DNA of 64,000 nucleotides from Diprion similis (lineage: Eukaryota > Arthropoda > Insecta > Hymenoptera > Diprionidae). The stretch spans positions 5,719,001 through 5,783,000 of the forward strand of contig NC_060113.1 in NCBI RefSeq assembly GCF_021155765.1, in the 5' to 3' direction. Shown one piece after another: positions 3,001 to 64,000 of the stretch. Position numbers and translations under genes: made by a program. Within the stretch, counting starts at the first letter, position 1, and each line of letters opens with the position of its first letter. The notes beneath the pieces are model-generated. The model was given only the letters and a program-made list of their open reading frames with translations. It ran no database searches and was not told the origin of the DNA.

Positions 3001-6000
3001 TGACTATATATCACTCAATTTCGTTCGAAACATAGTTAGTTTGCTTTAAATATAATACTTTAATCTAGTTTTTGAATTCATTTGAACCAGCACACTTTCG
3101 ATTCGATTCAATTAAAAACCTATTTTGTCCAATGGACTGAATATTTGTATCAAGAACTATGTACTGAAATAATTCGAATTTTTCGAATGAAATGAGTTTT
3201 ATTTTTTTTTGAGAGAGCATCATTCCACGAAAGTAAAAAATACTCGTCGAGCACTCCAATTCGAGTTTGTCCGAAAAATGCTAACCATTTGTATCTAAGC
3301 TGATTTAGAATAAACAAATTTTTTGATTCAAACAAATCGTGTGAACAGCATTTTCTTCCAGCGTATCCTGCTTTTTATGCAAGAAATCAGTTTCGTATCG
3401 GATCAGAAAGAGCCGGTCTGCAGTAGAAAAGAAGGTGTTGCAGAATGCGTAATATCGAAGTGCGATATTTGCATGTTGTATCGACACGGCAAACTGTGGG
3501 TGGCCTCCTTACTTCACGATTGGTATCAAGGACGCCATGATAGATTTAACGTCTTGTATACAAGATCGCATACGCATGTACGCTTGTTTTAAAAATAAGA
3601 ACAACAATAAAAGATCGTACAATTCGTTCGGTCAACAGGTCTGCACACCTAACGGTATAAATCTGCGCGTATAATTCTACCTGTAGAAAGTATTGAAACA
3701 GACTCTTTCGTAATCGCTATATACATACAAATAAGGTATACCTACGTGGTTTTCGTACACCCGCTTACGTCTCCCGAAACGACCACTCATGTCGGCCGAA
3801 AGTAATTCATCTCTGACGTAAAGTGATTTTTCTTTTTCCACATTTTCTGTTGGAAATATAACAAGCGAATGAGGAGATAGAGACTGACTATAAAGATAGA
3901 CTTAAAACATTGACTGAGTTGACTCTCTAGACATTTGCTATTCTATGGTCTTCTTCTAGTCTAACTATAAAGATAGACTTGAGAAATAGACTGAATTGAA
4001 CATGTGGACATTTGTTATTCAATTATCTTTTTCTAGGCTAACTATAAAGATAGACTTGAGGAATAGACTGAGTTGACCTTCTAGACATTTGTTATTTTAT
4101 GATCTACTTCTAGTCTAACTATAAAGATAGACTTGAGGAATAGACTGAATTAATCATCTGGACATTTTTTATTCTATGATCTTTTTCTAGACTAACTATA
4201 AAGATAGACTTTAGAGATAGACTGAGTTGACCCTCTAGATATTTTTTATTTTATGGTCTTCTCGAAAGCTTTAAAGCAATGCCTTGTTGTAACCGACGCC
4301 ATCAGTAAAGCTAAAGTAGACGCTATGCTAATTGTTCAAGTTCTACGTCTTGTTATATCGTAATAAATACATTCTAAAGGTTGAAGTGTTTCGTTATATA
4401 TATCCTGTCCCATGATAATCCTTATAAAAAATGTAGGTTTCCAACTCATCTTCCGTTCCGGTTTCAATTCAAAAAACTAACTTTTCGCAAATTCCATATT
4501 GCTTGTCTAACTCTAATTTTATTCATAACGTTTAATTGCAATACTTTTTTGGAGAAAGATCAAATACTCTTATGTCCGTCCATTTTTTTTTTTTTTTTCC
4601 GATACGAAATATTTTATCTATCTTATTTAAGGCCATAAGAAAGGCTTTCGGTTACTCTCGACATTGAAGTACAATGCCGGAAATAAATTCAGAGCGATGC
4701 AGGCAGGTTCGAGGATAGAAAGGCAGCCTGAAGATGACGGGTTTAAATTTCTAACTCTAAGAACCAGTTTGGATGGACTGCACGGTTGTTTTTACGCCTG
4801 CATAATATGGAGACGTGGGCAGCAGCACGTGCTACTGCTTAATAAAACCGATCACGTAAAATGGCCTAGTAATAAAAAATGTCACCCTGTGCGCCGAAGC
4901 ATCTATTTTACTTCTCAAAAACGTGAGGATTGCTATAATTAGCGTCAGATTAATCAGGTATAAAATTAATTTATGCCCAATTTTGAGGCGCTGTAATGCA
5001 CTTCGTGAGGAAATAATAAAACACCGCACGCGACTTGAATTCCTGATTAGAATCTACTCCACCGGCTGTTAGATAATGACACTTGTAACGTGAATTGTCT
5101 TATTGTTAAACAGTTGGTGAAATTAGGGAAAAACATTGAAATCCTGATTCCGACCTACATTTCGGTGTGAAGTTTAAACTTTTCCATTTAACTTTATTTT
5201 TCTTTCAAACACCAAAATTGAGGAAATTTCTCAAATTTCTTGGCACCCATATTTAGGGTCAACGACTATCATGATTACGACATATGGAAAGACGTAATGA
5301 ATATCCGAGGTTTATTAGAAGTCACGCAATAGAAAATTAATCTTCTTAAGTTCTTACGTGTGTTCCTTATACGTATAGATCTACGTATCTTACATAGCTC
5401 TGATATATGGACGAAATCTACGCGAAACCCAATACTCATTGAGAAATAAAAGCTGTTGGCTTTGGTTCGGCTTCGTATAAAGTAAGAACCGTTGCCGTGG
5501 TATAAAAATCGCATTTGTGATCGTAACATAACCGAGTCGGTATTATAATACCTGGTATTGCGATATCACGGGTATTCATGCAGCTGTCAGCAGATCCTGG
5601 GAGCGAATAATTAATTTGTTGTTACGAAAAATATTAATCACGCTAACGTTCTTTCTGTTCGTTGATCGTATTCTACAAATTTTTACGACATGAAGCTAAG
5701 CTTCAGTTTTACCATAAAAATGAAATGAAATTATGAAAACAATGAAATGAAAGTATTTGTAGTTCATTTGATATTGATGAAACGAGATTCAATTAATTGA
5801 CGTTTCATCATTTTCGCGGATTATCAGATTTTGAATCTATCGAATAATTTGCAACGGGCGAATCTTAACATTTCGTCTGATCAAATTTCATTTCAAATTT
5901 CACTACAAAAGTGAAATTTCTTTCTTTATTGTAAAACAAAATCCGATATCTCTTTTAAATAAATTAAGCACTATATTCATCGGAGTATAAAAGCATAATA

Positions 6001-43826: not shown

Positions 43827-45128
43827 TTACACTACAACTGGGGCAGCGACTGGAACGTTGAGTCTCGTGGCCACGGCTCTAGGGATGGTGTAAGCCACGG
43901 GGGCAGCAACTAAGGGGGCCGTTCTGGCGACAACGGGGGCGGCTGGTACGACTGGAGCAGTCCTGGCGACGACGGGAGCAACGGCGACGGCCGGTTCCCG
44001 GCTCACGACGGCGTTGAAGCCGTTAACGGGGTCGGCGGTGTACTCGACGACGCGACGAGTGCCATCGGGCTCAATGAGGGAGTAGCTGCCCTGGACGACG
44101 TCTCCGTTTCGCGTCTCGTATTGCGCCTTCGAATCACCGGTCAGAGAGTCTTGGACGTCGTAGGCGAAGCTGTATTGGGGCGCCGAGTCGAAGTCCTCGA
44201 TCCTTGCCAGGACTGGACCCGCTGGAGCCACCGGAAGTACTCCGGCTTTGGCGACTGCCGCCACGGCGAGAAGGATGCAGAGCTGCGAATTGCGAAATTT
44301 AGTTAGATTAGGTTGACGGAGGTGGGACACGCAGTTCTTGGTCTATCGGTGTCAGGGTGGCAATGATCGCTGGATCAAGTGCTTTTGAGGATGACGATTC
44401 GCGAGACTCGGGGATAATCACGCTTCGGTTGTCTCACTGAGCTGAGATTGACCAAAGAGACTACAATGTACATAAATTCTTAGAGACTTCAATTCGATTG
44501 CAATTTTTGTCGACAGATTTTAATATTCAAATTCATCTGACGTTGGATTCAAAGCCTCCCTCGTGACTTCGCTGCTTTGAGTAGATCGATTTGCAATTTG
44601 TTGTTAACAATAACGGACTCGTTACTCAAACGTCTGAGTAGACTTCCAACAGTCGAAACACTCTTTCTACAATCGTCTCAATCGTTCAACCAATCACAAG
44701 TTACGGCAAAACAATATTCTCGATAGTTGAAGAAACAGACGATTTCTGTTGGATCAATGAAATGCTTGTATTTTACACATTCTCAATTGAGGTGGCTCAA
44801 GATTCGGCACGAAATTTCGAATCAATTTAACGATCCTCTTGATATCTATTTACGATTCCTTGTGAAGCTACTTGTCTAAAATAACGAATAATTTGTAAAT
44901 CAGAAATCGAAGCATTCAAATTCAACTCCAGTCAGCAAAGAAGCAGTGAATTCTATTCTAATCAAAAATATTTCACTAATTGTAAACTAATAACACATTC
45001 GAGAACTGATGTTTTCACATTGTTATACCAACATTGAGAACAGTTGGTATAAAAATTTCAAGACACTGAAGTAATCGACAAACTGCAAAATGAATAAAGA
45101 ATGAATATCCATCTACCTTGAATGCCAT
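43827..45128 (-). CDS. CPR7: RR-2 cuticular protein, 155 aa
   Basis: A minus-strand secreted cuticle protein. Exon 1 is 45128-45117 (MAFK, donor GTAGAT) and exon 2 is 44282-43827 (acceptor TTCGCAG), with an 834-bp intron. The frame also runs 16 codons into the intron from an ATG at 44330; that reading has no leader and is rejected. The leader is [16 protein letters not shown]-2 domain about 34-101: [55 protein letters not shown]. The tail has VVARTAPVV repeats and ends VPVAAPVVV. It forms a head-to-head inverted pair with CPR8, whose leader, domain and 3' intron are nearly the same. Confidence 0.94.
44283..44640. repeat. Inverted-repeat arm A (CPR7 intron side)
   Basis: The 3' part of the CPR7 intron is an inverted copy of 47170-47527 in CPR8. 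Shared blocks include CCACCTCCGTCAACCTAATC, GAACTGCGTGTCCCAC and TGACGTTGGATTCAAAGCCT (or complement). Differences are scattered substitutions, with few or no indels seen. The arms continue through the coding exons. Confidence 0.88.
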
Positions 45129-46719: not shown

Positions 46720-48187
46720 ATGGTTTCCAAGGTACGAATCTAATCGTAAATTATACCATTTAAATCAGTATCAGTGACAGTGATCTTTTTCCAAAGCGGT
46801 TTGTGCGAAGTTGCCGATACCTACTTATAAAAGTGTATTTATTGTAACGCAAAACGAAAGGACTTTGTGCAATTCAAATTATGCCTTATTTTTATACTTT
46901 TTGTTTATTTTTAACACGCTGATATTGTGACTTCGGTCATCGAGCTGGAATCCATGAATTGTGAAGACTAAATTGACGGATATAGTGAAAAATTAATTCA
47001 ATAATTAAATTGAATATATGATTGATCTCTCTGGGTACCTGATCGGTTCATAGTTTCTACTTCGATAGTTAATCAAAGAATTTTTCAAATATAAAGTAGG
47101 ATGGGTATTAAAATGATCTGCTCAACGATTGACGCGGTTGTAGGAAGCATAATTCGAATGCCGGAAGCCAACTCAGTCGTTTGAGTAAAGAGTCAGTTAT
47201 TGTTAACAACAAATTGCAAATCGATCTACTCAAAGCTGAGAAGTCACGAGGGAGGCTTTGAATCCAACGTCAGATGAATTTGAATATTAAAATCTGTCGA
47301 CAAAAATTGCAATCAAATTGAAGTCGCTAAGAATTTAGGCACATCGTAGTCTCTTTGGTCAATCGCAGCTCAGTGAGATAACCGAAGCGTGATTATCCCC
47401 GAGTCTCGCGAATCGTCATCCTCAAAAGCACTTGATCCAGCGATCATTGCCACCCTGACACCGATAGACCAAGAACTGCGTGTCCCACCTCCGTCAACCT
47501 AATCTAACTAAATTTCGCAATTCGCAGCTCTGCATCCTTCTCGCCGTGGCGGCAGTCGCCAAAGCCGGAGTATTTCCGGTGGCTCCAGCGGGTCCAGTCC
47601 TGGCAAGGATCGAGAACTTCGACCCGGCTCCCCAGTACAGCTTCGCCTACGACGTCCAAGACTCTCTGACCGGTGATTCGAAGGCGCAATACGAGACGCG
47701 AAACGGAGACGTCGTCCAGGGCAGCTACTCCCTCATTGAGCCCGACGGCACTCGTCGCATCGTCGACTACACCGCCGACCCCGTTAACGGCTTCAACGCC
47801 GTCGTCAACCGGGAATCCGCAGCCGTCGCCGTCGCTCCCGTCGTCGCCAAGGCTGCCCCCATCGTCGCAGCCGCTCCTGTCGTCGCCAGAACCGCTCCCG
47901 TCGTCGCCGCTGCTCCGGTGGCAGCACCAGCTCCCGTCTTCGCCAGGAACGCCCCCGTCGTCGCAGCCGCAGCTCCAGCGCCGCTGGCCTACAGCACGCC
48001 TGTGGGATTCCCCGGCGTCGCTCCAGCGCCTCTGGCCTACACTGCTCCCCTGGGATTCCCCCCGGTAGCCAAAGTCGGAAGTCCAGTCGGCGTTCCGAGT
48101 TCCCTCGCCTATTCGGCCTACGCTGCACCGGCTGTTGCCGGACTGGCTGCCCCGCTGAGCTACGCTGCTGCTGGATACGCAATCTAA
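46720..48187 (+). CDS. CPR8: RR-2 cuticular protein, 223 aa
   Basis: A secreted cuticle protein. Exons are 46720-46731 (MVSK, donor GTACGA) and 47528-48187 (acceptor TTCGCAG), with a 796-bp intron. The leader [14 protein letters not shown] is identical to CPR7. RR-2 domain about 34-101: [55 protein letters not shown]. The tail is about 68 residues longer than in CPR7: VVA(K/R)(T/A)AP(I/V)VAAAP repeats, then two APAPLAY(S/T).P(V/L)GFP modules, then a Tyr/Ala end (AAGYAI). An antisense frame of 291 codons covers the exon and is a composition artefact. AATAAA is at 48226-48231. Confidence 0.95.
47170..47527. repeat. Inverted-repeat arm B (CPR8 intron side)
   Basis: Inverted partner of 44283-44640. 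It begins near TGAGTAAAGAGTCAGTTATT and runs to the acceptor TTCGCAG of CPR8 exon 2, including the sequence that reads as an in-frame ATG at 47480. Confidence 0.88.
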
Positions 48188-48239: not shown

Positions 48240-51200
48240 AACGCAAATTTAGCGATTATTTTATATTTTATTTTCACCACTATAATTTTGCAATAAGAGC
48301 CGGAATTACTTTTATGATTAAAATTTTTTTTTTTTATCAATCCTCTTCTTGTTGGATCGAAAAAACTATTTTTTTTCACTGCAATACTTCAAGGTATTGA
48401 ATTGTCCTCACTTGTTTATTCAGTTTTCCGAAAAGGTTATATTTCTCAACTCACCTTTTCCTATTGCTATTTCCTTACCTCACTGCTGTTCTGCAAGATT
48501 AAAATTTAAGTAAAATGGGACAAAAAAAATTATATCCCATAATCTGGCAAACAATTAGTCCCAACTATCTAATCGCAGTTAACGATAAGATAAATCGAAA
48601 TTAATCGTACCCAAATCTCTCCGAAAATCTTTTTGAAATCTGGTTTCATCGACGACGAAAGTGTAGTCGGACAGTAAAATAGTTACGTTAAATACCGTTG
48701 CAGCGATTATGGGCGACCGCACGAGTTCAGGCAGCTAGACTCAATCGAACGTGGTGTCAATTGAATATTAATGTAAATCGGATGACACGAATACACAATG
48801 GGAGGCTGAGGTGTGTCTAGTATAATAAGTAAAAGCGGCAATCAATGTCACTCAATTGGCATACCGCATAAATTACTATAACACTTTCTGCAATTCACTG
48901 CTTCGCTGCCGCGCCGTTATGCAATAACCTTGGCGCACGACTCGTGCCTTTCTTAATTTGCAAGTATGTACATACATGTTCGCACTCGATTCACAGAAAC
49001 AAAATATGCGTAGTTATAGGTACCGTTAGTTTGGAGCATAGCCAGCGACTTATTGCTATCGTTCAAGATAATCCTGGCTTCACTCGATCGGAGAATAACA
49101 ACAACTCGCGATTCAATTTGAAAATGAAAACAAACGAGGAGGAATTCGTTGAGTAAATTTTCGTTAAACGTTCGTTAAAACTTAAATTTTTTATAACGTT
49201 TTAAATATATCTGGGATAAACCTGAAATTCTAGGAGTTAAACGATAAAAAATTAAGGATAATATAAAATAGAGTTGAATTTTAAAAAGAGATCTACAATT
49301 TTTATACTTTTTGTAATATTGCAATTCAAAACTTATCAGATACTTTTTGTGATTTTATTCTATCGAAATAGTTTTCGAAAATGACTAACATGTACACAAC
49401 TTAATCACGTGTACCGATGATTGTCATCATTATTAATAACAACAATAATAACCTTGATTTATTTAGTAACGATATTAAATAAATAGAATAATTCCAAGAT
49501 AATTGATAAAAAAAAGAAAAAAATGACCACAGCGATATATTTTTATTATATAAAATAATCACCGCATAATTTTTTGCAACTATTATAGTAAATCACATCG
49601 TATGTACAATAACTATAAATAGTTGTCCTTGTGTTTAAACGATTTATCGTAATATAAAAATCCCGCTTGTAGCAAAGAAAAAACAAGACACATTAATCAT
49701 CCAGAAATGAATTAGGTGTACAACTTAGCACGTTAACAAATATACAATAAACAACGGCTACTATAGACCTGTTGTAGAAAAATTGTTCAAAGAATTCAAA
49801 TCAGCGTGGAAATCGTCAGCGCAAATGCGAGATAGGCATGCGTCTGACCAAGCGCGGCAGTTTCTACTACTAGAACGGCAATAGGCGGAAAGATAGATCG
49901 TCTCGAGCCGCCAAGTAGTCAAACCTACGATTAGTCGGCCGTATGGCGGCCGGTCCGTCGAGTCTGACTACTTCCTAGCGGCTCATCTGCCGCCGCTATC
50001 ACTTTCTATGACTGCGCTGATTGTGAGTGGCACACTGATGCCGTGATGTGAGTATACATGGTGTGCCTGGAACTCCTACGACACGCCCCTTTCTTCGAGG
50101 TCAAAGCCTTTAAGTGAGACGTGTACCAACTGTCTAAAGAAATCCCTATATTCCTAGGGAATTATTTTTCTAGCGAAGGCTGCCCTGCTCGGTAATGCCG
50201 TCACGTATAGTTATGGCGTGAGTTATTCAAAGTCCCGCTAATTTTTTTCCCCACGCAGATTCAACCTCGCGACAATTAATCACCACCGATCTAGGGAATT
50301 TCGACGTCGTTGGTACGCATCTTACTTAAGTCCAGTCCAGCGCGAGAGAGAAACTTTTTTGGAGTAAGAAGCTGCGCTTCTAGACACACCCTGCATACTC
50401 CTGTGCAGATGATAAACGGAAACTGAAACCACGATATCACAGATCCGCAAAATTCCACACGATATTTAACCACCAGTCGTAGTTTTTAACATCCTGCACT
50501 AATTATTGTAGCTTTTATTCTATAAAAGTCGTAAAAAAGGACCGTTTTATTTTCTCTGATCATTATTTGTTTGTTTATTTATTTATTTATTAATTTTTTT
50601 CGTATTCTATTCTGTATTTTGTACAGAAATCTATTTCTATACTATATATGAAGAGAACTGTAGACTGCACGTACGACGCAATTGTGAGGTAAAAAAAAAA
50701 ATTGGATCAGTCAACAATTGGATCAGCATGATATAATTGTATGTCACTAAGAAATGTTACTCACGTGCATAATGCCGGATCACGTTGGTTTAGCGCTGAT
50801 TCATTTAGCCGGTAGCGTTAAAAATTCAAAACACTTCCACTGCAGTTGTCGTACGACAAGCATGACAAAGTCCTTATTGCCTCCGAGATGTATTATAGAT
50901 CGACCCAATTCGTCATGAAACTAAAAAACATTTCAATTTCGTCTGTGCGTTATAAAAACATGTTTAGCAATATAATTACTAATTACACGTTACGGATTTT
51001 TATCCCGGTTCTGATTCACTGGTTAAGGTGATATCAAAATAAGTTAAAGATTCAGATACTTTGCATAGATTAGAGTAAGTAACTTCACTGCCACATAAGG
51101 AATAAATATGATGTAAAATAAACGTGCCTTCCGAGTATGACTTCCTCTGAATATTGCTGCTCACAGTTGAGTGATCCAAACAGCGGAAAGCCAAAGTTCG

Positions 51201-51586: not shown

Positions 51587-51622
51587 TATAAAAGCCCTGG
51601 CGATACTCCGTACAGTATCAGT
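51587..51622 (+). promoter_or_regulatory. CPR9 core and proximal promoter
   Basis: TATAAAAG at 51587-51594 and TCAGT at 51618-51622. Upstream, at about 51523-51552, TTTTGGGTGAACG..GAGGGGCGCGGCCT is conserved in CPR10 and CPR11. Confidence 0.82.
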
Positions 51623-51647
51623 CATCCGCAAGACAGTAACAGCAGCC

Positions 51648-52930
51648 ATGGCATTCAAGGTGAGCAATTACCGCATGCCTGTACAGTAATCCTCAATGGA
51701 ATCTGAATCGGAACGAGATATTTTTTAATGTTGTTAAAAATCTCGACGCGGACTTTATTTTGTGTTACATTTGTTCGTTGGAAGTTTTTTTTTTTTTTTT
51801 TGGGTCAAGGTTTTACGGAGCCTACTGAACAGAGTAACGATGTACGGACCTAACCGTGACGGGAAGTCGAACGTCGTTCAAAGATTTATAATATTCATGA
51901 TATCTGTGAAAGTGAATTCGTAAGCGTATCGACGCCGTGATTCATCTCGGGACAAATGATTTAGATCCGAATTAATTCTCTCTGACCGAATTGAGATCGT
52001 GAGATTACCCTAATTGTAAATTGAATATACAAAGAAATTTTGTGCCATAATATTGAATGTCTATCTATCGTCATAGCTAATAGAAAATTGAATATGTAAA
52101 CTGTTGATTAATTATATTGGACACAAAATTTTTGTTAATTTTTGTTTTTGAGAAATTTTATGATGTCAATAAAACTTCAACTATCGAAGACACAAGGCAT
52201 ATTATATGGATTCGTAGACATAATATTTTATTCCTGAATCACACATGATTTGCAAATAGGGTCAGAGAAATAAAAAATTGTGAGACTACGTGGCTAACAG
52301 ACTTCCTTCCACTTTCAGTTCGTCACCCTCTTCGCCCTCGTGGCCGCCGCCAACGCCGGAGTTCTGGCCCCCGCCCCCCTGGCCTACCACGCGGCCCCCG
52401 CCTACGCTCACGCCGTCCCAGCTTACGGCTACGCCGGAGCCCCCCTGGCCAAGGCGGTGGTAGCGAAGACCGTCGACGCTGATTACGACGCTCATCCTCA
52501 GTACAGCTACGCTTACGACGTCCAGGACTCGATCACCGGAGACAACAAGCAGCAGCACGAGACCCGCGACGGTGACGTCGTCCAGGGAAGCTACTCCCTC
52601 ATTGAATCCGACGGAACCCGACGTACCGTCGACTACACCGCTGATCCCGTCAACGGATTCAACGCCGTCGTCCACAAGGAACCCGCCGGCGTTGCCGTCA
52701 AGACCGTCGCTGCCCCCGTCGTCGCTAAGTACGCCGCCCCCGTCGCTCACGCCCCCCTCGCCTACGCCGCCCCCGTTGCTCACGCTCCCCTTTCTTACGC
52801 TGCCCCCGCTGCCCACGTGACCTACGCCGCCCCCGCCGTGGCTCACGCCGCCCCCCTTTCCTACTCCGCGTACGGCGCCCCCACGGCTCACGTCAGCTAC
52901 GCCGCCCCCGCCTACGCTTACCATCATTAA
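51648..52930 (+). CDS. CPR9: RR-2 cuticular protein, 207 aa
   Basis: A secreted cuticle protein and the first of the CPR-IR triplication. Exons are 51648-51659 (MAFK, donor GTGAGC) and 52319-52930 (acceptor TTTCAG), with a 659-bp intron. The leader is [16 protein letters not shown]-2 domain about 58-125: [55 protein letters not shown]. The tail carries [10 protein letters not shown](A/S) modules, AAHVTYAAP and the end AYAYHH. From about 52515 to just past the stop it aligns without indels to CPR10 (offset 3614), with about seven differences by eye; the 5' part is less alike, including an extra [14 protein letters not shown] segment. AATAAA is at 52978-52983. Confidence 0.95.
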
Positions 52931-52977
52931 GCCGAACCTAATTTTAATTAGTCATATTTAAAAGTGTATAGTTTTTA

Positions 52978-52983
52978 AATAAA
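52978..52983 (+). terminator. CPR9 poly(A) signal
   Basis: AATAAA about 48 nt beyond the stop. Confidence 0.78.
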
Positions 52984-52989
52984 AACGAA

Positions 52990-53720
52990 ATACTTGTCAT
53001 GTACATGCAATTGTTTAAGATTCATTCATTTTAAAAAAATGAAATTTCAACGGTCCAAATTAGTCGAAATGCGGTATAATTGCAGTGTCTAAATGAACTA
53101 TCCTCAAATTATTTCAAGATCTTTAAAAAACTCTATGGTGCTCTATACTATAGTGCGAAACTTTCTCGTAAGTTGGTTAAGCTAAGACAGCAAATAGATT
53201 TTGAGATAACAAGACATGGTGACTGGTGCATTGCACATCGGCAGAGAGTGCATCGTCAACGTCGGAAAAACGAACTTTTCTACAATTTCGTGACACCTGC
53301 TGGTCAGGCTGTTGCCCAGAAAAACGCCCAGGGTACACAAAAAATGTTGTCAATGATTCTACGCAACTTATTGAGAACATATAAAAGTTAACGAAAAATA
53401 CTATTGCCTGGAGACTCGTCAGCACATAGACTCTTGTGACTGACGTTACTGTATGACTCGAGCAGACTCGGCATTGTGAATATTAACTTCAATTATAATA
53501 ATAATATAATTTATAAAATGGAAATACAATGATCTATAAATGAAGGTAGTAGGTTGAAGAATATTGAGTTTGGTTTACAATACAGGAAAGATAAATGAAA
53601 TATATGAATACACAAAATGGAATGAATGTTTCGTATATTCACCTCAGAAATTAATTCATTTAGCGCGCACTATTTAAATTAGGTTACATCGTCACAGCAT
53701 TCTGATGTCGCTTTGATGGG
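52990..53720. other. Spacer between CPR9 and IR pseudogene 1
   Basis: No supported gene. A + strand frame (about 53083-53391) encodes a basic peptide containing RHGDWCIAHRQRVHRQRRKN, but it has no ATG start, promoter or domain that I recognise. The IR transmembrane region that would be expected here in a complete copy is absent. Confidence 0.55.
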
Positions 53721-53722
53721 TA

Positions 53723-54227
53723 TCAAGATCTTGATATCTGCTTGATATATAGAGGGTAACTCGATTCGGTTTGTTCGAGTTTGAATCTGTTGAATTTGCG
53801 AACATCCCACGTTTCTTTCCAACTACTTTCAGCTAGTGGATTCCACGCGAATTTCAACTGCAATTCGGTGAATTGGTTAAAAAACTCACAAAAGGTGATC
53901 ATCATGAATATATTTCCTTGAAACCTTGGTGGACTCAAGATTCAACGTCAAGAATGTCTGACAATGAACTGCCGCCTCATTACCTCAGCCCAAATAATTT
54001 CGCAAATTAAGCTGCCTCTGCGTGACAGAATAATGATTATTGCAGACTTCTTGGATTGATGCTAAGCAATAAACAATGAAAGTTTATCGTTAGTTCAAGC
54101 CATCGTTCTATTAAACTGTTCCGTAAACTGAAGAATCTTGCCTGAAGTAATTTGTCGCTTCAGCTAGCTTAGCTTGTAAAACGGTAAGTGAAAATATTGC
54201 AAGAATACCAAAAATAATTTTGCACAT
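53723..54227 (-). pseudogene. IR pseudogene 1 (truncated ionotropic receptor)
   Basis: A broken copy of the intact IR gene at 61680-63551, in the same orientation. It starts MCKIIFGILAIF at 54227 (intact: MCKIMFCVIVTF) but meets a stop after 38 codons (54111). Recognisable matches resume downstream in other frames: CAAGATTCAACGTC near 53935 and the segment FMMITFCEFFNQF..LKFAWNPLAE (intact: FMTVNVHDFFYKF..LKYAWNPRAE). About 140 codons are then missing before TWDVRKF (intact: TWGDHHF). It ends near 53723, before the first transmembrane segment, so no channel domain remains. Confidence 0.85.
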
Positions 54228-54325
54228 ACCGACGTTCCACTGTTCGATAACCGTAAATGGAATGAACATTTGACCAGGTACGAAATCAGGCGACATGACG
54301 TATTGGATAGAATTATCTTGACATC

Positions 54326-54416
54326 TGATTATGTTTACTTTCACCACGTTTTGAGAGTGTACAATCAGGCGTTGCCGACTCTCGACGGAATATTTGCACA
54401 CCGATTGTAGCAATTT
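54326..54416 (-). repeat. 91-bp block upstream of IR pseudogene 1, shared with the intact IR
   Basis: Aligns without gaps to 63651-63741 with about seven differences by eye. That is a closer match than the coding parts of the two copies. It contains TTTCACCACGTTTTGAGAGT. It may be an old promoter/5' UTR element. Confidence 0.82.
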
Positions 54417-55196
54417 GGATAGTGTAGTGATACTTTTAGAAGAAAATCACGCAATAAGTTGTAACGATGTTTGACTATGAATCTATAATCACGCTGTTGA
54501 ATTTTTCTGTATCGTTATTCGTTTATGCAGCAAATTCGGAAAGAAAAGAAATCCAGATTTTCCATAAAAATCATCAATTAATTATGAATCGATACAGACA
54601 ATCCAAATTTTGTTCTTGACTTATTCTCTTCATTCTTCAAAAATTTGATACTGTTATAAATCAGTAAGAAGATTCAAACTCATCTCAGTTTTATATAATT
54701 AACTTCTTTGCATGAAATTTTCACTCGATATCATACGTAGAACGAAAATGATGATGTGCCGTAGTTTATCGAGGTAATTTTACTTAAATGAAGCATAACT
54801 TGCGGTAAAGATATGCGGCTGACCTTACAACCCAAGGCACTGTAGAATCCGAGGTTACAGTCCGAGAAAAACGTTTGCATCTTAATTTAATGCAAAGTCT
54901 AAATCAACTGTAATTTTCAACATGAGCACCAAATTTAAAAGTCAAATCTCACGTATCAATTGCAAATAAATATTAGTTTCACCGTCCGAAAAATAGTTTA
55001 CTGCTTTAGCTAGGATGCTTAATTAGGATCACTGTACTATAGGTACAAGTCTTTGTTGATTTCAACGTGATATAATAACTAGTGACTCCACAATCAAGCG
55101 TTAACGGTTGCATTGTGTCTATGCCTAGCGGTGTTGATTGATATTATGTCAGGTGAAAGAATTCAAGCTGCAGGGTGAGCACGCGGGTACCCGGTT

Positions 55197-56145
55197 ACGA
55201 AGAGGGGATAGAGAAAGACTGCAACCCATCGGCGAATGGGAAAGAGGATACATATCCAGTTTTGGGTGAACGCCTGAGAGGGGCGCGGCCTTGCGATGCA
55301 AAATTCCGGTTCCATTCGTCGGTATAAAAGACCTACCGCAACTCCGAACTGTATCAGTAATCCGCAAGACGTTACAGCAGCCATGGCATTCAAGGTGAGC
55401 GATTTTCACGTCTCTGTCATACTCGATACAGCGTCGATCGGTACTTTTGTCCCAATCGACTACCGTTTATACAAACACAACCGAACAATTTTTGCTTTTT
55501 CACTCTATTTTATTTTATCACTGCTGAAAATGTTATTCGACTAAAAATTCTGAATACATTATTGTGCAGAAGAGATATTGAGTAGAAATATAACCGTTCA
55601 ACCCTCGAATACTATTGACAAGTCTTTTGAATCTGCCTATTTCTTGTCGCCATGATGTCACAGTTGATGTCGCAACTATTAGATGTAATTAGAATTTTAT
55701 TGCGCTAATTACTCTATTATTTCAAAGGCAAGTCTGTAGTGCTTTCCATATCAAAATAGCCTCGAGAATATTATTCTATTCGTATAAAATGTATATTCAC
55801 CCTTTTTCCCATCTGGATATCTATTCAAGAACGTAGAGCTTAGATTTGTACACAATATTTCATTCGTAAATCAGAAATTATTTACAAATACAATCATACG
55901 ATTAAGAAATGGCGAAACTCAGAATAGATTTCTCAAAGAGACTCTTTCGCTTTCAGTTCGTCGCCCTCTTCGCCCTCGTGGCCGCCGCCAACGCCGGAGT
56001 TCTGGCCCCCGCCCCCCTGGCCTACCACGCGGCCCCCGCCTACGGCTACGCCGCCCCGATCGCCAAGGCCGTCGTCACCAAGACCGTCGACGCCGACTAC
56101 GACCCGAACCCCCAGTACAGCTACTCCTACGACGTCCAGGACTCG
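55197..56145 (+). repeat. Near-identical direct repeat, copy 1 (CPR10 promoter-intron-5' exon)
   Basis: Matches 59442-60390 at a constant offset of 4245 with only about three differences seen by eye (all in the intron region), while the flanking DNA of the two copies is much more diverged. Confidence 0.9.
55323..55358 (+). promoter_or_regulatory. CPR10 core and proximal promoter
   Basis: TATAAAAG at 55323-55330 and TCAGT at 55354-55358. The conserved TTTTGGGTGAACG..GAGGGGCGCGGCCT block is at about 55260-55289. Confidence 0.82.
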
Positions 56146-56544
56146 ATCACCGGAGACAACAAGCAGCAGCACGAGACCCGCAACGGCGACGTCGTCCAGG
56201 GAAGCTACTCCCTTATTGAATCCGACGGAACCCGACGTATCGTCGACTACACCGCTGATCCCGTCAACGGATTCAACGCCGTCGTCCACAAGGAACCCGC
56301 CGGCGTTGCCGTCAAGACCGTCGCTGCCCCCGTCGTCGCTAAGTACGCCGCCCCCGTCGCTCACGCCCCCCTCGCCTACGCCGCCCCCGTTGCTCACGCT
56401 CCCCTCTCTTACGCTGCCCCCGCTGCCCACGTGACCTACGCTGCCCCCGCCGTCGCTCACGCCGCCCCCCTTTCCTACTCCGCGTACGGCGCCCCCACGG
56501 CTCACGTCAGCTACGCCGCCCCCGCCTACGCTTACCATCATTAA
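55383..56544 (+). CDS. CPR10: RR-2 cuticular protein, 199 aa
   Basis: A secreted cuticle protein. Exons are 55383-55394 (MAFK, donor GTGAGC) and 55957-56544 (acceptor TTTCAG), with a 562-bp intron. The frame stays open from an ATG in the intron (55909), but that reading adds a charged, non-hydrophobic N-terminus and is less likely. The leader is [16 protein letters not shown]-2 domain about 51-118: [55 protein letters not shown]. The tail has [10 protein letters not shown] modules and ends AYAYHH. The gene is a mosaic: promoter to mid-domain like CPR11, remainder like CPR9. AATAAA is at 56592-56597. Confidence 0.95.
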
Positions 56545-56591
56545 GCCGAACATTTTTGTAACTCGTATAATATTTAAAATGTATAGTTCTT

Positions 56592-56597
56592 AATAAA
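56592..56597 (+). terminator. CPR10 poly(A) signal
   Basis: AATAAA about 48 nt beyond the stop. Confidence 0.78.
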
Positions 56598-56599
56598 AA

Positions 56600-58110
56600 C
56601 GAGATAAATCTTACATATACTTGATGTTATTTGACATATATTCATTTGCGTTTATTTTCGATCCTCAAGTTCCATCTACTCACAAATTAACTGCGCTACT
56701 GGAAACAGTTTGTACTAACGAAAATTGTTGTGAATATAGGCGTTATTAGAAAAGCAGTTGATTCATGCGGATTTATGTGCCGATGAGACAGTGCGTTAAT
56801 TGATTTCGATCGATATTTCATCAAGATATAATACATGTGTTAAATATTCAACGTATTCAACGAGTCAACAATATTTTTTTCTCACAAAATTCACAAGAAA
56901 GAAAATAAATAAGCTTCTATACCTTGAAAGGTTAACCACTTCTAAAATGCTTCTCCTTATCACGTGATAATCAAACCTTTTGCATAATTATCTAACGGTT
57001 TGTTCCAAAAATGGAATATGATAGGTACTTCTGGTTTGTTACTGTCCTTTTATTTTTATCCTGCCCCGTACGCACTCATTATCACTCAAGATTTCGAGTG
57101 CACACGCAGACACGCTACTCGCAATTTAACTCTTGCACCTTCCTTAGTTTCACACAGTTTGTCGATCACGAAGTCACGTCCAGTGCGTATTTTTTATCAA
57201 GTATACTTCGATTCCAACTCTCGTTGAAGCAATTTCCATTTTTCATTGCTCACATGCGACAAGTCAATCCTGATTCCATGCTTCGAATTATAGTTCCAAA
57301 CGTTGGTAAACAAAGTCTAACCCATTTCATACAATTCGACAATTCCACTTTCATCATTGTAAATAAAAAGTAGTTAAATTGACATATTGACTTCGCATAG
57401 AAGCAGCTCGATATCCGGTCAATCCGAACTAGACATTCTACTGACTTGATGATTGGGACTGATTGTCCCAATAATTGTTCATTGACAATTTTTGTGAATT
57501 TTCATGAAAATCGGCAATTATGTGGTAGGTAACTTGTCGGATTGCAATTTCCATGGTAACTTTTGCTCTCTACGCTCCTATAATGGCTGTGGAATTTTTT
57601 CAGATTCTTACGATGAGAATTGTTACGCAACGAGCTTTCCAAAAAACATCACTTTTGGACGTTATTTTAAATAATAACTGGACACATGTGGAACGTAACT
57701 GATTGGAACCCAGTGAAAACCACTTGTTTTATGGAGCTTCATAATGAGTTCAAGTTTCAAGTAAATCGAAAAAGTTTAGAGTTTCACAGACGTGTCCCCT
57801 TAACGTAAGATTTTGAAAAAAAAATTATATTTTTTTGCCAAAGTTTGGCGATGGACACTTTTAAATAACACGGTAAGAAAAATTATTGTAGTTTCATTTC
57901 TGTTCTTAAAAATCGGTTTTCCACATGAAATTCATAATGAAAGTGTTTTTTTTTTTTATCCCGTTTACTCCTAAGAAATGGGAAAAAAATCAGCATTCAT
58001 TAATTTTGAATTTGACTACTGAAAATAAAAAAAATAATAATCGAATAAAGGGTTTGTTTCAAAAATCTCGAAAACCGTTTGAGATAAGAAGCTAAAAAAA
58101 AAACCGGTTA
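56600..58110. other. Spacer between CPR10 and IR pseudogene 2
   Basis: No firm gene. A + strand frame at 57011-57373 (120 codons) has ATG followed by a hydrophobic stretch (YFWFVTVLLFLSCPV) that resembles a leader, but nothing further is recognisable. The IR channel region is not found here on the minus strand. Confidence 0.5.
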
Positions 58111-58117
58111 TACCCTT

Positions 58118-58960
58118 TCAACGAAAACTCCGAAAAGTTAAGTTTATTTGACAAACGACAATTATTATAACGGTCATTAGATAAGCGATCGTCAATATAG
58201 GACAATTCTCATCGATACAGGGGACAAAAAACAATTCGATTTGTTCTTCTGACTTGAACGAGGTAGAAATATTATTCAGTCGTAATTTGAATCCGCTGAA
58301 TTGTCGATCATCCCACATTTCGCAGACCTACATGGAGTTTTTTTACAGCACAAGCTCGTCGTTTGTGAAATTAATGGAATCTGTCGTGACTCTCACGCAG
58401 CTCTTGAAGTAGGTCATCATGAAGCCGAACTGCATACCGGGTTTTTTTAGTCTTCCCCTTTCCACAGGTATCCGTTCATTTTCTAGAGTTTGTAAGAAAA
58501 CATTTTACAAATTCAGTAACTCCTGCATAAGAAAATGATCGTTAAGCTGTCCTGTGAAATTGAAGAACTCTATAGATGCAATCGTTCATTGAAGACCGTT
58601 TCTAGCTGAGCGTCGTTTGGATTAAAATCGGTGAAAATGAGATGTTCTAGATGTTTAGATGTCACGTGAAATTCAGTCGAAATTCAGTGAATTGGTAAAA
58701 AAAAAAAAAAAAAGAAAATGAACTAACAAACGTTGAACCTTATAAAAATGACAGACTTAAACTAGCCCGCTCTAAATCAGTCTTTTATTTTCTTTGGTAA
58801 CAAGATCCTTCGTGGATTCGAGATTCAACGTCAAGAATGTCGGAGAATGAACTGAGGCCTTCATTAGCTCTTCCAAAATTTTAAATTAGCCTGTATTCCT
58901 GTATCATTATACTTTCACACAGCAATCTCTGAATCGTCGAATCGCCCTTTCTTAAAATCA
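58118..58960 (-). pseudogene. IR pseudogene 2 (truncated ionotropic receptor)
   Basis: A second decayed minus-strand IR. From 5' to 3' on the minus strand I can align: a segment near 58810-58870 with TCAACGTCAAGAATGTC, as in pseudogene 1; a segment at about 58600-58730 matching the intact gene around 63061-63170; and a stretch from 58318 reading MWDDRQFSGFKLRLNNIS (intact: TWGDHHFSGYELWLNYMP) into the pre-M1 region. Frames are broken between these blocks and an A run interrupts at about 58699. It stops at about the start of the first transmembrane segment, close to where pseudogene 1 ends. Confidence 0.8.
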
Positions 58961-59441
58961 GAAATGATTAAGCGGTATATAAGCTTTACTTTTGCTTACT
59001 ATAATCGAAAACGGAAATTCTGATGTGCATAGCTTATGGAGATCCCTTTACCTAAACCAATTGAGCTAAATTTAAAGTAATTAAGGTTTTCTTGGCCAAG
59101 TAGACACAAGGCTGAATTTACAACCCAAGACACCGAAGAAGCCGAGTTCTCATTCTATCAAAAGTTCAAATCGACTAATCGACGTCAACAATTATTCATA
59201 CGATCGAGCAACAAATTTCAAACTCCATTCTAGGATCTGGTGACTAATTAACAAAAACTGTATTCACTAAAATATCCAAGTACTTAATGCTATCAACGTG
59301 ATATAATGATACGAATAACTTGAGAGATTTTATATCAATGATAAAGCCAGATGGATCCATTACGTCTACGCCCGGCAGTGCAAGTATAATTATGTCAGGC
59401 GAAAGAATTCAAGCTGAAGGGTGAGCATGCGGGTGCCGCTT

Positions 59442-60390
59442 ACGAAGAGGGGATAGAGAAAGACTGCAACCCATCGGCGAATGGGAAAGAGGATACATAT
59501 CCAGTTTTGGGTGAACGCCTGAGAGGGGCGCGGCCTTGCGATGCAAAATTCCGGTTCCATTCGTCGGTATAAAAGACCTACCGCAACTCCGAACTGTATC
59601 AGTAATCCGCAAGACGTTACAGCAGCCATGGCATTCAAGGTGAGCGATTTTCACGTCTCTGTCATACTCGATACAGCGTCGATCGGTACTTTTGTCTCAA
59701 TCGACTACCGTTTATACAAACACAACCGAACAATTTTTGCTTTTTCACTCTATTTTATTTTATCACTGCTGAAAATGTTATTCGACTAAAAATTCTGAAT
59801 ACATTATTGTGCAGAAGAGATATTGAGTAGAAATATAACCGTTCAACCCTCGAATACTATTGACAAGTCTTTTGAATCTGCCTATTTCTTGTCGCCATGA
59901 TGTCACAGTTGATGTCGCAACTATTAGATGTAATTAGAATTTTATTGCGCTAATTACTCTATTATTTCAAAGGCAAGCCTGTAGTGCTTTCCATATCAAA
60001 ATAGCCTCGAGAATATTATTCTATTCGTATAAAATGTATATTCACCCTTTTTCCCATCTGGATATCTATTCAAGAACGTAGAGCTTAGATTTGTACACAA
60101 TATTTCATTCGTAAATCAGAAATTATTTACAAATACAATCATACGATTAAGAAATGGCGAAACTCAGAATAGATTTCTCAAAGAGACTCTTTTGCTTTCA
60201 GTTCGTCGCCCTCTTCGCCCTCGTGGCCGCCGCCAACGCCGGAGTTCTGGCCCCCGCCCCCCTGGCCTACCACGCGGCCCCCGCCTACGGCTACGCCGCC
60301 CCGATCGCCAAGGCCGTCGTCACCAAGACCGTCGACGCCGACTACGACCCGAACCCCCAGTACAGCTACTCCTACGACGTCCAGGACTCG
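59442..60390 (+). repeat. Near-identical direct repeat, copy 2 (CPR11 promoter-intron-5' exon)
   Basis: Partner of 55197-56145. The equal 562-bp introns differ at about three positions (for example CCCAATCG against CTCAATCG). The identity stops abruptly within the RR-2 domain at GACTCG. Confidence 0.9.
59568..59603 (+). promoter_or_regulatory. CPR11 core and proximal promoter
   Basis: TATAAAAG at 59568-59575 and TCAGT at 59599-59603. The upstream GGGTGAACGCCTGAGAGGGG block at about 59508 is the same as in CPR10. Confidence 0.82.
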
Positions 60391-60843
60391 CTAACCGGGG
60401 ACAACAAGGAGCAGCACGAGACCCGCGACGGAGACGTCGTCCACGGTGGATACTCGCTCATCGAAGCTGACGGAACCCGCCGCATCGTCGACTACACCGC
60501 CGACCCCGTTAACGGATTCAACGCCGTCGTCCGCAAAGAGGGCGCTGCCGTCGCCGTCAAGACCGTCGCTGCCCCCGTCGTGGCCAAGTACGCCGCCCCC
60601 ATTGCCCACGCTCCACTCGCCTACGCCGCCCCGGTTGCTCACGCTCCCCTTTCTTACGCCGCTCCTTTCGCCAAGTACGCCGCTCCCATCGCTCACGCTC
60701 CCCTTTCTTACGCCGCCCCCGCTGCCCACGTGACCTACGCCGCCCCCGCCGTCGCTCACGCCACCCCCCTTTCCTACTCAGGGTACGCCGCCCCCACAGC
60801 TCACGTCAGCTACGCTGCCCCCGGCTACGCTTACCATCATTAG
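59628..60843 (+). CDS. CPR11: RR-2 cuticular protein, 217 aa
   Basis: A secreted cuticle protein. Exons are 59628-59639 (MAFK) and 60202-60843, with a 562-bp intron. The leader and spacer are identical to CPR10. RR-2 domain about 51-118, diverging after [46 protein letters not shown] replaces the GSY found in the other ten copies. The tail is 18 residues longer than in CPR10 through one added module, [18 protein letters not shown], and ends GYAYHH. AATAAA is at 60891-60896. The next feature, on the opposite strand, is the intact IR, so the two genes converge. Confidence 0.95.
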
Positions 60844-60890
60844 ATCGAACCTTCTTGTAATTAGTAATGTTTAAGACTGCATAATTTCCG

Positions 60891-60896
60891 AATAAA
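60891..60896 (+). terminator. CPR11 poly(A) signal
   Basis: AATAAA about 48 nt beyond the stop. Confidence 0.78.
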
Positions 60897-60899
60897 ATA

Positions 60900-61670
60900 A
60901 GATATCATGAAATTATCATTGTTTATTGAAGATCAATTCGCTCCACCTTTATTTTCTACCCACAAATTTCGTATAATCACACACAAACTGCACACGATAC
61001 TGGGTATGATTGATTTTAAGCATATCGTTTTGGATACACACTATTAACAACTAGTCTCCCGGACACTACCGGGACACGACAGCCGATGACGCCTCCCGTT
61101 CTGGAGTCAGGTCACCAAGCACCTATTACGGGTTCATACTTAGAGTATACGTATAGTACATAGAGACAGCCAATTCTATTCTGTCCCATAAGTGGTGAGC
61201 GTATAAAGGATAGATATGGTAGCACGAGATCCTTTCTCTGTCTCACAAAATTTGATTGGTCGGTTCAAAATAGTCACGTTACTACGTCAGAGCTGCACCA
61301 AGCGATGCTGTAAGGGTGCAATCTGCAGCATTATTTAACGATTTCATGGAAACTTGGAAAGTGAAAGCTATAAGTAGTATTGGTGTCAAATAATGCCCAG
61401 AAACTGAATGAAATTCAACGATAGGCTGTTGATAAGTAATTTCCATCCAATTCAAAAAGACCAAAGTATAACCAATGGATCAAATCAATTACTTGAACAT
61501 AATTTTTTTTATACTTCGGGATTGTAAAAAAATCCAATTAATAATTGCTTAATTTAAAAGCGGAGTAAATCGTAATGAGCTGTAGTTTGCAAAAGAGAGA
61601 GAAAAAATTCTAAAAGATGACATTTAAATAATTATATCATCATGGATACTCAATAATTAACCGTAAACAC
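60900..61670. other. Convergent spacer CPR11-IR
   Basis: No gene seen. It contains a short CCCGG..CCGGG hairpin near 61052 and would include the 3' UTR of the IR gene. Confidence 0.55.
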
Positions 61671-61679
61671 AGGCCAACG

Positions 61680-63551
61680 CTAATTCATGGCCTCATTGTT
61701 GGACTGTCTCGGTGCATCCTTCTTCAGATAGCGGTTGAAGTAAATCTCCGCAATGAAGAAGCAGAGACTAATAAAGAGTCCAACCCCCCAAACGTAGAAG
61801 CTCATCATCTGGGTCTGAAGCGACAATTTCTTCAACGGTCTCTCCGCAGATGTATAAATTATCGAATCCCCTGACAGTAAGTCCTGCAGATAACCGTGCT
61901 CTTTCCAGTACTGATCCAGGCCAGCCTCCTTGCAGGCGAGAACAACACTGTCAATTTTTTCAAGGTACGGCGACCCGTAAGGAACGAAGTAAGCCCCGAA
62001 ATCCGGGATGAAATATTCCTTCATAATGTGGTAAAGGGGCACGCCATTTTCAAAGAGGATCTTTCGCCTCGCCATGTACTCTGCCATGCTATTTGGAAAG
62101 GCGTAAGCTTCGTCACGGTGGCTCGCCATGTACACCACATACTCCACAGTCTGGAAAGTAAACACCTTCAAGCCTAACTCTTGCCTCGGGAGATGCTCGG
62201 CGGTGTTTTGTAAGGTCCATAGTGTTTTCGTCCGCTGGCGAAGTTGAGGCAGCGTGTCGATTTCGCGATGATAAGACAAGGTAGCCAGGACGCTGTACAA
62301 CGAACCCTGATACGCGCTTAGGATGAGCAGAGAGAACATCATCAACATCGTGAAGGTAATCCTTTCCACCAGTTCTTGGTGCCTGTTCACCAAACCCATA
62401 CCCAGGAAAATTCCTAGGGTTCGGAAAAGAGCATTATCTATTATTCCCCGAAGCTTGTTAAATGTGTGCAAATAAACAGAGAAAACTGCTAGAGTAGTTA
62501 GCACGCAAATCCATGTAGCTTTGTCGTAGGTTGCGAGTAGACTCGGTATTTTGATGCCACTCTTTGGTGCCAGAATTCGGATATCTCCTTTAACCACGGG
62601 ATACGAACGTTCGATACGTTCCTCAAATTTTGTGGCAAATGGCATATAATTAAGCCACAATTCGTAACCACTGAAGTGATGGTCCCCCCAAGTTTTGTAG
62701 CGATATGTAACGTTTTGGTAGGAAAGAATTTGGCTTTCTGTAAGATTGATGGAACTTGAACTGGCGTTCATGGCCTTGTAGATTGCTTTAGCGTGGCTAA
62801 AATCTAAACCGAATATTTTGAATCTCCTCTCGTTTTCTACCCACTTTACTACGTTACTGCCAGAGTACGGAATGTACTTGGACCTAATCGGGTACCCGTT
62901 AGTGTTGCGGAGCTTGTCGTAGAACATTCCTGACCAATTCACAACTTCCTGCATCTGAAGATGGTGATTAAGGTATGGATTATAGGTGTAAGCTTCTCCT
63001 CGATTATGGATAATTACTGCGACATTGAGAACTCGGTGATTCCAGCATTCGTTAAAAACCATCTCTAGCTCGGCTGCGTTCGGCTTTATTACAGCAAAAA
63101 TCAAATGCTCAGCTCTTGGGTTCCACGCATATTTCAAACGAAGTTTTGAAAATTTGTAAAAAAAATCATGAACGTTAACCGTCATGAATATGACTGACCT
63201 GAAGTTCTCCATGCTTGAAATGAGCCCAATACTTTTATTGGCAATCGTATCGTCAGTGGACTCAAGATTCAAAGTCAAATACGTTTGAGCCATTGCTTTC
63301 ATCAGCTTTCCCAACATACCGTCACAAGCTGAGCAACCTCGACGTGACAAAACAACGTTGACCGTTGTCTTAGCAGACTGACGCTTTGCCAATTGAAACA
63401 ATAAAACTTCATAATCGTCTGTTAAATAATCCTCGTACTCAAATGTTCCTTGAAGCGAAGACCTCAATGATGAATTTTTTTCGTCAGATTTTTCAATTAG
63501 AAAAACAGCAACGAAAAACGTGACAATAACACAAAACATAATCTTGCACAT
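61680..63551 (-). CDS. Ionotropic receptor (divergent IR family), 623 aa, intronless
   Basis: A ligand-gated cation-channel-like chemoreceptor of the insect IR branch of ionotropic glutamate receptors, expected in the membrane of sensory neurons. It is one uninterrupted frame. Residues 1-20 are hydrophobic (leader), followed by an N-terminal/S1 region to about 340. M1 is at about 345-364 (ATWICVLTTLAVFSVYLHTF), the pore loop at about 372-387 (ALFRTLGIFLGMGL), and M3 at about 397-421 ending LSAYQGSLYSVL, where glutamate receptors have SYTANLAAF. The S2 lobe covers 425-578 and M4 is at about 582-604. The SAYQGSL motif and weak conservation place it among fast-evolving divergent IRs, not the IR8a/IR25a co-receptors. 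The ATG at 63551 follows an in-frame stop about 60 bp upstream. Two broken relatives lie at 53.7 and 58.1 kb. Ligand unknown; an exact orthologue cannot be named. Confidence 0.92.
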   Translation of the reverse strand: MCKIMFCVIVTFFVAVFLIEKSDEKNSSLRSSLQGTFEYEDYLTDDYEVLLFQLAKRQSAKTTVNVVLSRRGCSACDGMLGKLMKAMAQTYLTLNLESTDDTIANKSIGLISSMENFRSVIFMTVNVHDFFYKFSKLRLKYAWNPRAEHLIFAVIKPNAAELEMVFNECWNHRVLNVAVIIHNRGEAYTYNPYLNHHLQMQEVVNWSGMFYDKLRNTNGYPIRSKYIPYSGSNVVKWVENERRFKIFGLDFSHAKAIYKAMNASSSSINLTESQILSYQNVTYRYKTWGDHHFSGYELWLNYMPFATKFEERIERSYPVVKGDIRILAPKSGIKIPSLLATYDKATWICVLTTLAVFSVYLHTFNKLRGIIDNALFRTLGIFLGMGLVNRHQELVERITFTMLMMFSLLILSAYQGSLYSVLATLSYHREIDTLPQLRQRTKTLWTLQNTAEHLPRQELGLKVFTFQTVEYVVYMASHRDEAYAFPNSMAEYMARRKILFENGVPLYHIMKEYFIPDFGAYFVPYGSPYLEKIDSVVLACKEAGLDQYWKEHGYLQDLLSGDSIIYTSAERPLKKLSLQTQMMSFYVWGVGLFISLCFFIAEIYFNRYLKKDAPRQSNNEAMN

Positions 63552-63650
63552 ATCTACTTCACTGTTCGACAGTTCGGAATCAAATAAACAGTTTTCTAGG
63601 TAAGAAAAATTGGATCACATGACCTAGTGGATGTCAAATGTCTCGATACC

Positions 63651-63741
63651 TGATTATGTTTACTTTCACCACGTTTTGAGAGTGTACAATCAGACGTTAC
63701 CGACACTCGATGGAATATTTGCATACCAATTGTAGCGATTT
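63651..63741 (-). promoter_or_regulatory. Conserved 91-bp block upstream of the intact IR
   Basis: Partner of 54326-54416, about 100 bp before the IR start codon. It is retained at higher similarity than the neighbouring coding sequence, which suggests a functional 5' element or a recent conversion. No TATA box is obvious. Confidence 0.6.
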
Positions 63742-64000
63742 GTCAAGTGTAATGATACTTTATCAATAAAAGCATGGAATGCGTCGACTACCATTCTGAA
63801 ATACAATGATACTTTTTGCTGGAAATCATGCGATGTGTTATGGCTATTCAATTTGCTTGTACTCCTGTATCATTCATCGTTTCCATAAGCTTTTAAATCT
63901 TGAAAACCTTTTTTGCTCAAATTTTCTTTACATTTTCACGCAAACCATCAACACATCCATAGTTGATTGTAAACGTGTTATTTACCGAACTGTGCTCCTT

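Follow-up and report, generated by a model that had tools for sequence, protein, structure and literature searches.

Alternating cuticle-protein genes and ionotropic receptor copies in Diprion similis: a likely old unit duplication with later gene conversion among the cuticle genes

On contig C9 of the Diprion similis genome, genes for RR-2-like cuticle proteins (CPR) alternate with copies of an ionotropic receptor (IR). The window, meaning the whole stretch of DNA analyzed, spans 64,000 nucleotides (C9:5719001-5783000), and genome searches covered 269 Mb in 60 contigs. An initial annotation had described three consecutive units here, each with a cuticle gene on the plus strand followed by an IR copy on the minus strand. 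This arrangement is borne out, as a minus-strand IR lies after each of the CPR genes at 51648-52930, 55383-56544 and 59628-60843 (CPR-A, CPR-B and CPR-C). The array continues past the window edge with a further cuticle gene (CPR-D) and a further intact receptor (IR-D), giving four CPR(+)/IR(-) pairs of one order and orientation in about 16.3 kb. The receptor had been thought to survive only in the last unit of the window; with IR-D intact beyond it, two of the four receptors survive. The features are as follows, in window positions unless the contig is named:

51587..52930, plus strand: CPR-A, intact; TATA box 51587, exon 1 (MAFK) 51648-51659, exon 2 52319-52930
53087..54227, minus strand: psiIR-A, with frameshifts and stops; residues 1-148 at 54227-53828, about 335-470 at 53474-53087
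54325..54368, minus strand: 44-bp element upstream of psiIR-A, identical to that of IR-C
54768..55188: spacer left of CPR-B, homologous to 59060-59434 (256/370 identical, 0/200 shuffles)
55195..56145: CPR-B tract equal to CPR-C at 59440-60390 (948/951 bases, three-way alignment)
55323..56544, plus strand: CPR-B, intact, a C-like/A-like mosaic; TATA box 55323, exon 1 55383-55394, exon 2 55957-56544
56146..56551: CPR-B tract near-identical to CPR-A (all but 7 of 406 bases)
58190..58879, minus strand: psiIR-B, with frameshifts and stops; residues 79 to about 314-328
59568..60843, plus strand: CPR-C, intact; TATA box 59568, exon 1 59628-59639, exon 2 60202-60843
60405..60619 (in CPR-C): 215-bp exon 2 stretch identical in CPR-C, CPR-D and CPR-E (215/215 bases)
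61680..63551, minus strand: IR-C, intact intronless ionotropic receptor of 623 aa with a Lig_chan domain
63650..63693, minus strand: 44-bp element upstream of IR-C, identical to that of psiIR-A
C9:5785085-5786950, outside the window: IR-D, intact, behind CPR-D

The gene models of CPR-A, CPR-B and CPR-C are predicted from sequence alone. The predicted first exon has 12 bp and encodes MAFK in these three and in CPR-D; in the former it is followed by predicted introns of 659, 562 and 562 bp, respectively, and TATAAA sits 60-61 bp before the ATG. All three match the Pfam domain Chitin_bind_4 (E = 3.8e-18, 3.6e-18 and 4.3e-17), and 33-bp repeat units occur within their second exons. With the MAFK exon 1, an intact exon 2 and the domain matches, the cuticle genes are intact in all three units, as had been proposed. 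CPR-D, whose exon 1 starts at C9:5783593 (64593 in the window frame, 0.6 kb past the window end), also matched the Chitin_bind_4 (R&R) domain, as did CPR-E (L019, C9:5799802 onward), a solitary gene outside the window. CPR-E and CPR-D have the beginning and the core of exon 2 in common at about 92-100%; near CPR-E no MAFK exon 1 was found, and no receptor relative lies beside it. The cuticle cluster on C9 (C9:5728671 to 5841378) holds at least 20 of the genome's at least 87 Chitin_bind_4 matches, both counts being lower bounds by the search tool's own statement.

CPR-B is a mosaic of its two neighbors in the array. Its C-like tract runs from the promoter through exon 1 and the intron into exon 2, where the partner switches from C to A between 56127 and 56146. 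Of the partner-specific sites of exon 2, 23 are C-type and 0 A-type before this switch, and 2 and 45, respectively, after it (maximum chi-square 61.7, 0/20000 permutations). Outside the tracts similarity falls away on both sides, to 75.5% in the adjoining 100-bp bin and 46-72% beyond it at the left edge, and to 65% with C and 54% with A at the right. Two-sided tracts of near-identity with diverged flanks are present, then, between cuticle paralogues. The 215-base stretch shared by CPR-C, CPR-D and CPR-E is the chitin-binding region, in which CPR-A and CPR-B differ from CPR-C by 31 and 32 bases; of its 70 codons, 18 and 19 differ synonymously. Change in this stretch is therefore tolerated, and the identity of C, D and E is accordingly a trace of exchange and not of constraint. 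When the longest concordant run was tested by permutation, B-C, C-D, C-E and D-E each gave 0/10000, A-B gave 107/10000 and A-E 7594/10000. The likeness of the cuticle genes is due to gene conversion as well as to retention, conversion being the process that we infer for the tracts. Between IR-C and IR-D no such tract was found, identity running at 56-83% per 100 bp with a longest identical run of 27.

The assignment of IR-C rests on a Lig_chan match of 31.9 bits (cut-off 30.8) and on residues 323-440, which match glutamate receptor delta-1 chains (2.5e-4); against the insect IR ligand-binding domain LBD_receptor (PF24061) it scored 25.6 bits, below the cut-off of 27. Hydrophobic peaks in its channel region start at residues 346, 370, 394 and 582. 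Searched with IR-C, the genome yielded 19 candidates and 9 matches, the nearest being IR-D (61% identical, C9:5785121-5786950) and the second-nearest a 38% relative, which lies on contig C8 at a distance of over 450 kb from any cuticle match listed for that contig; this search finds psiIR-A and misses psiIR-B, and decayed copies elsewhere could escape it. In the extended sequence, positions 1-51000 and 68000-133000 yielded no further relatives of IR-C or IR-D on either strand; the best score there was 55, and a reversed-sequence control with IR-C reached 56. Genome-wide, Lig_chan had 33 matches, none in C9:5.70-5.85 Mb, a search that misses IR-C and IR-D themselves and is not a count of IRs. 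IR-C and IR-D are identical at 373 of 616 aligned residues, with a dN/dS of 0.25 and a dS of 1.06, which is near saturation (616 codons, our own counting script). Both look constrained, as under purifying selection, and their split looks old. The idea that the duplicated receptor was in general free to decay does not agree with two of four copies being intact and constrained.

The two broken receptors carry frameshifts, stops and different deletions. Their tblastn E values are 2.1e-9 and 6.0e-6 for psiIR-A and 2.4e-12 for psiIR-B, and frameshift-aware alignment, with a stiff gap-extension penalty and the regions scanned separately, gave scores of 150 and 116 for psiIR-A (20 shuffles, maximum 59) and 172 for psiIR-B (20 shuffles, maximum 46). 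The IR thus aligns to both proposed pseudogene regions better than to shuffled sequence and in consistent order, as the initial annotation had expected. In psiIR-A about residues 149-310 have been lost internally and the C-terminal end was not found; its second block matches IR-C over residues 335-413 in the frameshift-aware alignment and reaches about 443-447 otherwise (447 with tblastn), and matches IR-D over residues 339-470. In psiIR-B residues 1-78 and everything after about 328, that is the channel region, were not found, the last matched residue being 314 (frameshift-aware) or 328 (tblastn), short of the first hydrophobic peak at 346. Both copies had been said to end near the start of the first transmembrane segment. 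This is right for psiIR-B, which by these matches stops short of that segment, and wrong for psiIR-A, whose matches indicate that it continues through it. Moreover, the missing parts are complementary, as psiIR-B keeps the residues 149-310 that psiIR-A has lost and psiIR-A keeps 1-78 and about 335-470. Because each keeps much of what the other lacks, descent of both from a single truncated ancestor, also suggested earlier, is ruled out.

Differences from IR-C at the three codon positions number 84, 67 and 117 in 211 codons of psiIR-A and 77, 67 and 115 in 207 codons of psiIR-B, a third-position excess that fits constraint on IR-C alone or a period in which the now dead copies were functional, and cannot separate the two. 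The receptor tree is (((psiA,psiB),C),D), with support of 90/86 and 95/97, on long branches and with psiA and psiB overlapping by only 55 aligned residues. Several weaker candidates were set aside. IR-like matches at 48989-49062 and 57196-57298 were no better than shuffles and are not claimed, a match at 53718-53776 (score 39) lay under the shuffle maximum and is suggestive only, and matches of the psiIR-A surroundings to IR-D at 54755-54847 and 54230-54328 (scores 44 and 40) were weak and were not used.

For the spacers, homology was judged by local alignment with shuffles and by MAFFT bins; global pairwise profiles give 62-66% even where local alignment finds nothing, and such values were not taken as evidence of homology. 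Left of the promoters of CPR-B, CPR-C and CPR-D, the spacers proved homologous in all three comparisons (0/200 shuffles each). Those before A or after D matched nothing in seven comparisons, with 24-153 of 200 shuffles reaching the score. A spacer match between B and C at 56981-57027 (2/200, then 5/200 shuffles) is suggestive only. Between C and D the cuticle blocks (59358-60924 and 64315-65937) are 70.3% alike and the receptor blocks (61740-63803 and 66130-68190) 69.9%. Tandem duplication of a CPR+IR unit, as put forward in the initial annotation, would be the simplest origin of the four alternating pairs, and the fourth pair supports it; the alignments do not show a continuous block of CPR, spacer and IR.

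We consider it likely that an old duplication of the unit to at least four copies was followed by piecemeal gene conversion of the cuticle genes while the receptors diverged independently. An RR-2-like CPR gene on the plus strand and an intronless IR on the minus strand would have been duplicated in tandem long ago within the 20-gene cuticle cluster, giving A, B and C in the window and D just beyond it. The cuticle genes would then have exchanged sequence between A and B, between B and C, and between C on one side and D and the solitary E on the other. Since the tracts start and stop inside the cuticle genes or at their margins, promoter, intron and coding sequence would have been homogenized piecemeal. 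The receptors, outside these tracts, would have diverged separately, with IR-C and IR-D kept by purifying selection and IR-A and IR-B broken by different deletions, frameshifts and stops. Consequently, cuticle similarity dates the last conversion and receptor divergence dates the duplication. Since the two similarities run on different clocks, comparing them directly exaggerates the contrast between a family that is "kept" and one that is "decaying". That contrast, drawn by the initial annotation, holds as a count of intact genes (four of four cuticle genes, two of four receptors) and not as a measure of divergence, the cuticle genes being homogenized and the receptors without tracts.

Several observations weigh against this account. 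The expected colinear diagonals through CPR and IR with shared breakpoints were not seen: among A, B and C the cuticle genes and receptors match as separate blocks, and the C and D blocks are colinear and unjoined. The left-spacer alignment covers 370 bases between B and C, and just the 74-80 adjoining the promoter where D is aligned with B or C. Six comparisons of the spacers between CPR and the 3' end of the IR were unconvincing (5-190 of 200 shuffles), the lowest counts being 5/200 for B-C and 9/200 for A-D. The two halves of the unit also give different nearest relatives, as C and D are closer in the promoter (158/194, against 144/192 for A-C) and A and C in the IR 5' flank (208/275, against 150/265 for C-D). 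The longest-run test is unspecific; it also gave 0/10000 for A-C (an 18-site run), A-D (a 12-site run) and B-E, and 3/10000 for B-D, and does not by itself show partners as distinct from clustering. In addition, assembly polishing could have over-homogenized near-identical copies. Finally, the 44-bp element precedes the psiIR-A and IR-C start codons by about 98 bp, lies near coding sequence that is about 55-65% alike, has two genomic places within 3 mismatches and is not conserved at IR-D; its identity may reflect selection or a minor exchange of sequence in the receptor half of the units.

The separate blocks, the unconvincing spacers between CPR and IR and the discordant nearest relatives would also fit a history with no unit at all, in which a small IR array and the cuticle array each expanded on their own, perhaps as cuticle copies inserted among the receptors, and the cuticle genes underwent conversion. 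We regard such interleaving of single-gene duplications as unlikely, given that all four pairs keep order and orientation, that the C and D blocks are colinear at equal divergence and that homology between B and C reaches past the tract into their left spacers, where 370 bases align; at a dS near 1, moreover, neutral spacers may be merely unalignable. A single ancestral unit would account for these features. Chimeric CPR-B and its near-identity with C and A might instead be ascribed to unequal crossing-over alone, and the C-like 5' side and A-like 3' side are indeed what a C/A crossover predicts. Such a crossover should also have brought C flanks on the left and A flanks with psiIR-A on the right, but both flanks drop away at once and psiIR-B keeps parts missing from psiIR-A. 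The two-sided tract edges refute crossing-over as the sole cause unless both flanks were later replaced, and we find this extremely improbable.

A recent amplification of the unit under selection for cuticle dosage, with the receptor hitchhiking and free to decay and both pseudogenes derived from one truncated copy, was the explanation offered initially. The alternating pairs and the survival of all the cuticle genes and half of the receptors fit it. However, a recent amplification should have left neutral spacers as alike as the cuticle genes, which they are not, and cuticle similarity is confined to mosaic tracts; two receptors are constrained, and beside 16 of the 20 clustered cuticle genes no relative of IR-C or IR-D is detectable. 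The timing and truncation parts are already contradicted, the latter by the complementary losses of psiIR-A and psiIR-B. Dosage selection on the cuticle genes is possible, and the explanation as a whole is quite improbable.

Within the preferred account of old duplication and later conversion, the pairs may be coupled as units and uncoupled in evolution, with amplification repeatedly carrying the receptor along and conversion renewing the cuticle half only. This is a doubtful extension, which if true would make such arrays a nursery of passenger chemoreceptor copies, some kept (IR-C and IR-D) and others lost (A and B), whose regulation was possibly shaped by the cuticle neighbor. The array offers an internal control for concerted evolution, as each unit places a converted and an unconverted gene side by side. 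Because the paired genes probably share a duplication date, the length, direction and frequency of conversion tracts could be measured against the receptor clock. It also cautions that where one family seems kept and its partner decaying, conversion can be behind part of the pattern.

The ingredients of this locus are known, and the pairing of CPR with IR is a local case; that pairing is not named in the titles or abstract openings of the literature found, though we do not claim its absence from print. As far as the available part of the report goes, gene conversion has been described in the Drosophila CPR arrays 67F and 84A, in the latter with its center on the R&R domain and a link to coding repeats (Cornman, 2009; PMC2793513). 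Exon 2 of CPR-A, CPR-B and CPR-C likewise contains repeats, of 33-bp units. Those arrays, so far as that text describes them, resemble the present one in having tandem cuticle genes, paralogues too alike for their age and homogenized stretches with diverged flanks. Unlike them, the tracts in D. similis interlock (A-B, B-C, C-D-E), one of them takes in promoter, exon 1 and intron, and the conversion partners are separated by receptor genes of an unrelated family. RR-2 arrays of Anopheles gambiae, according to the accessible portion of the account, are compact, with a first exon of 12 nt (median and mode), a TATA box and subsets of near-identical genes (PMC2259329), all of which recur here. The same portion treats cuticle genes only and mentions no receptor neighbor, whereas here receptors adjoin. 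Blattella germanica, in the excerpt at hand, has expanded IRs that form a mostly intronless clade with many pseudogenes (393/897 as printed; PMC6175461), and the intronless, divergent IRs and high pseudogene share of D. similis are similar. Compared with that excerpt, the D. similis case differs in being a four-member clade in one place, with two members broken and the next relative in the genome at 38%.

Elsewhere in the window there are further cuticle genes, making 11 cuticle exons in all, and an RR-2-like pattern matches 8 places. A tree of the 11 window cuticle domains (183 columns) stars only the branch A+B; converted stretches are mixed in this tree, and no history was drawn from it. 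Two other cuticle genes, at 43914-44686 on the minus strand and 47124-47899 on the plus strand, are 93-100% identical per 100 bp across approximately 47200-47800, and identity in the flanks is low; this is likely another conversion tract, here between inverted copies. Rfam at gathering scores gave no matches in 43000-64000. Beyond the window, a repeat of about 650 bp at C9:5800815-5801470 and C9:5807579-5808206 (L019 and L020) is 84.9% alike in inverted and 67% in direct orientation, and is possibly a palindromic mobile element. At 3881-4260 a short tandem repeat recurs about every 77 bp, with copies 81-88% alike.

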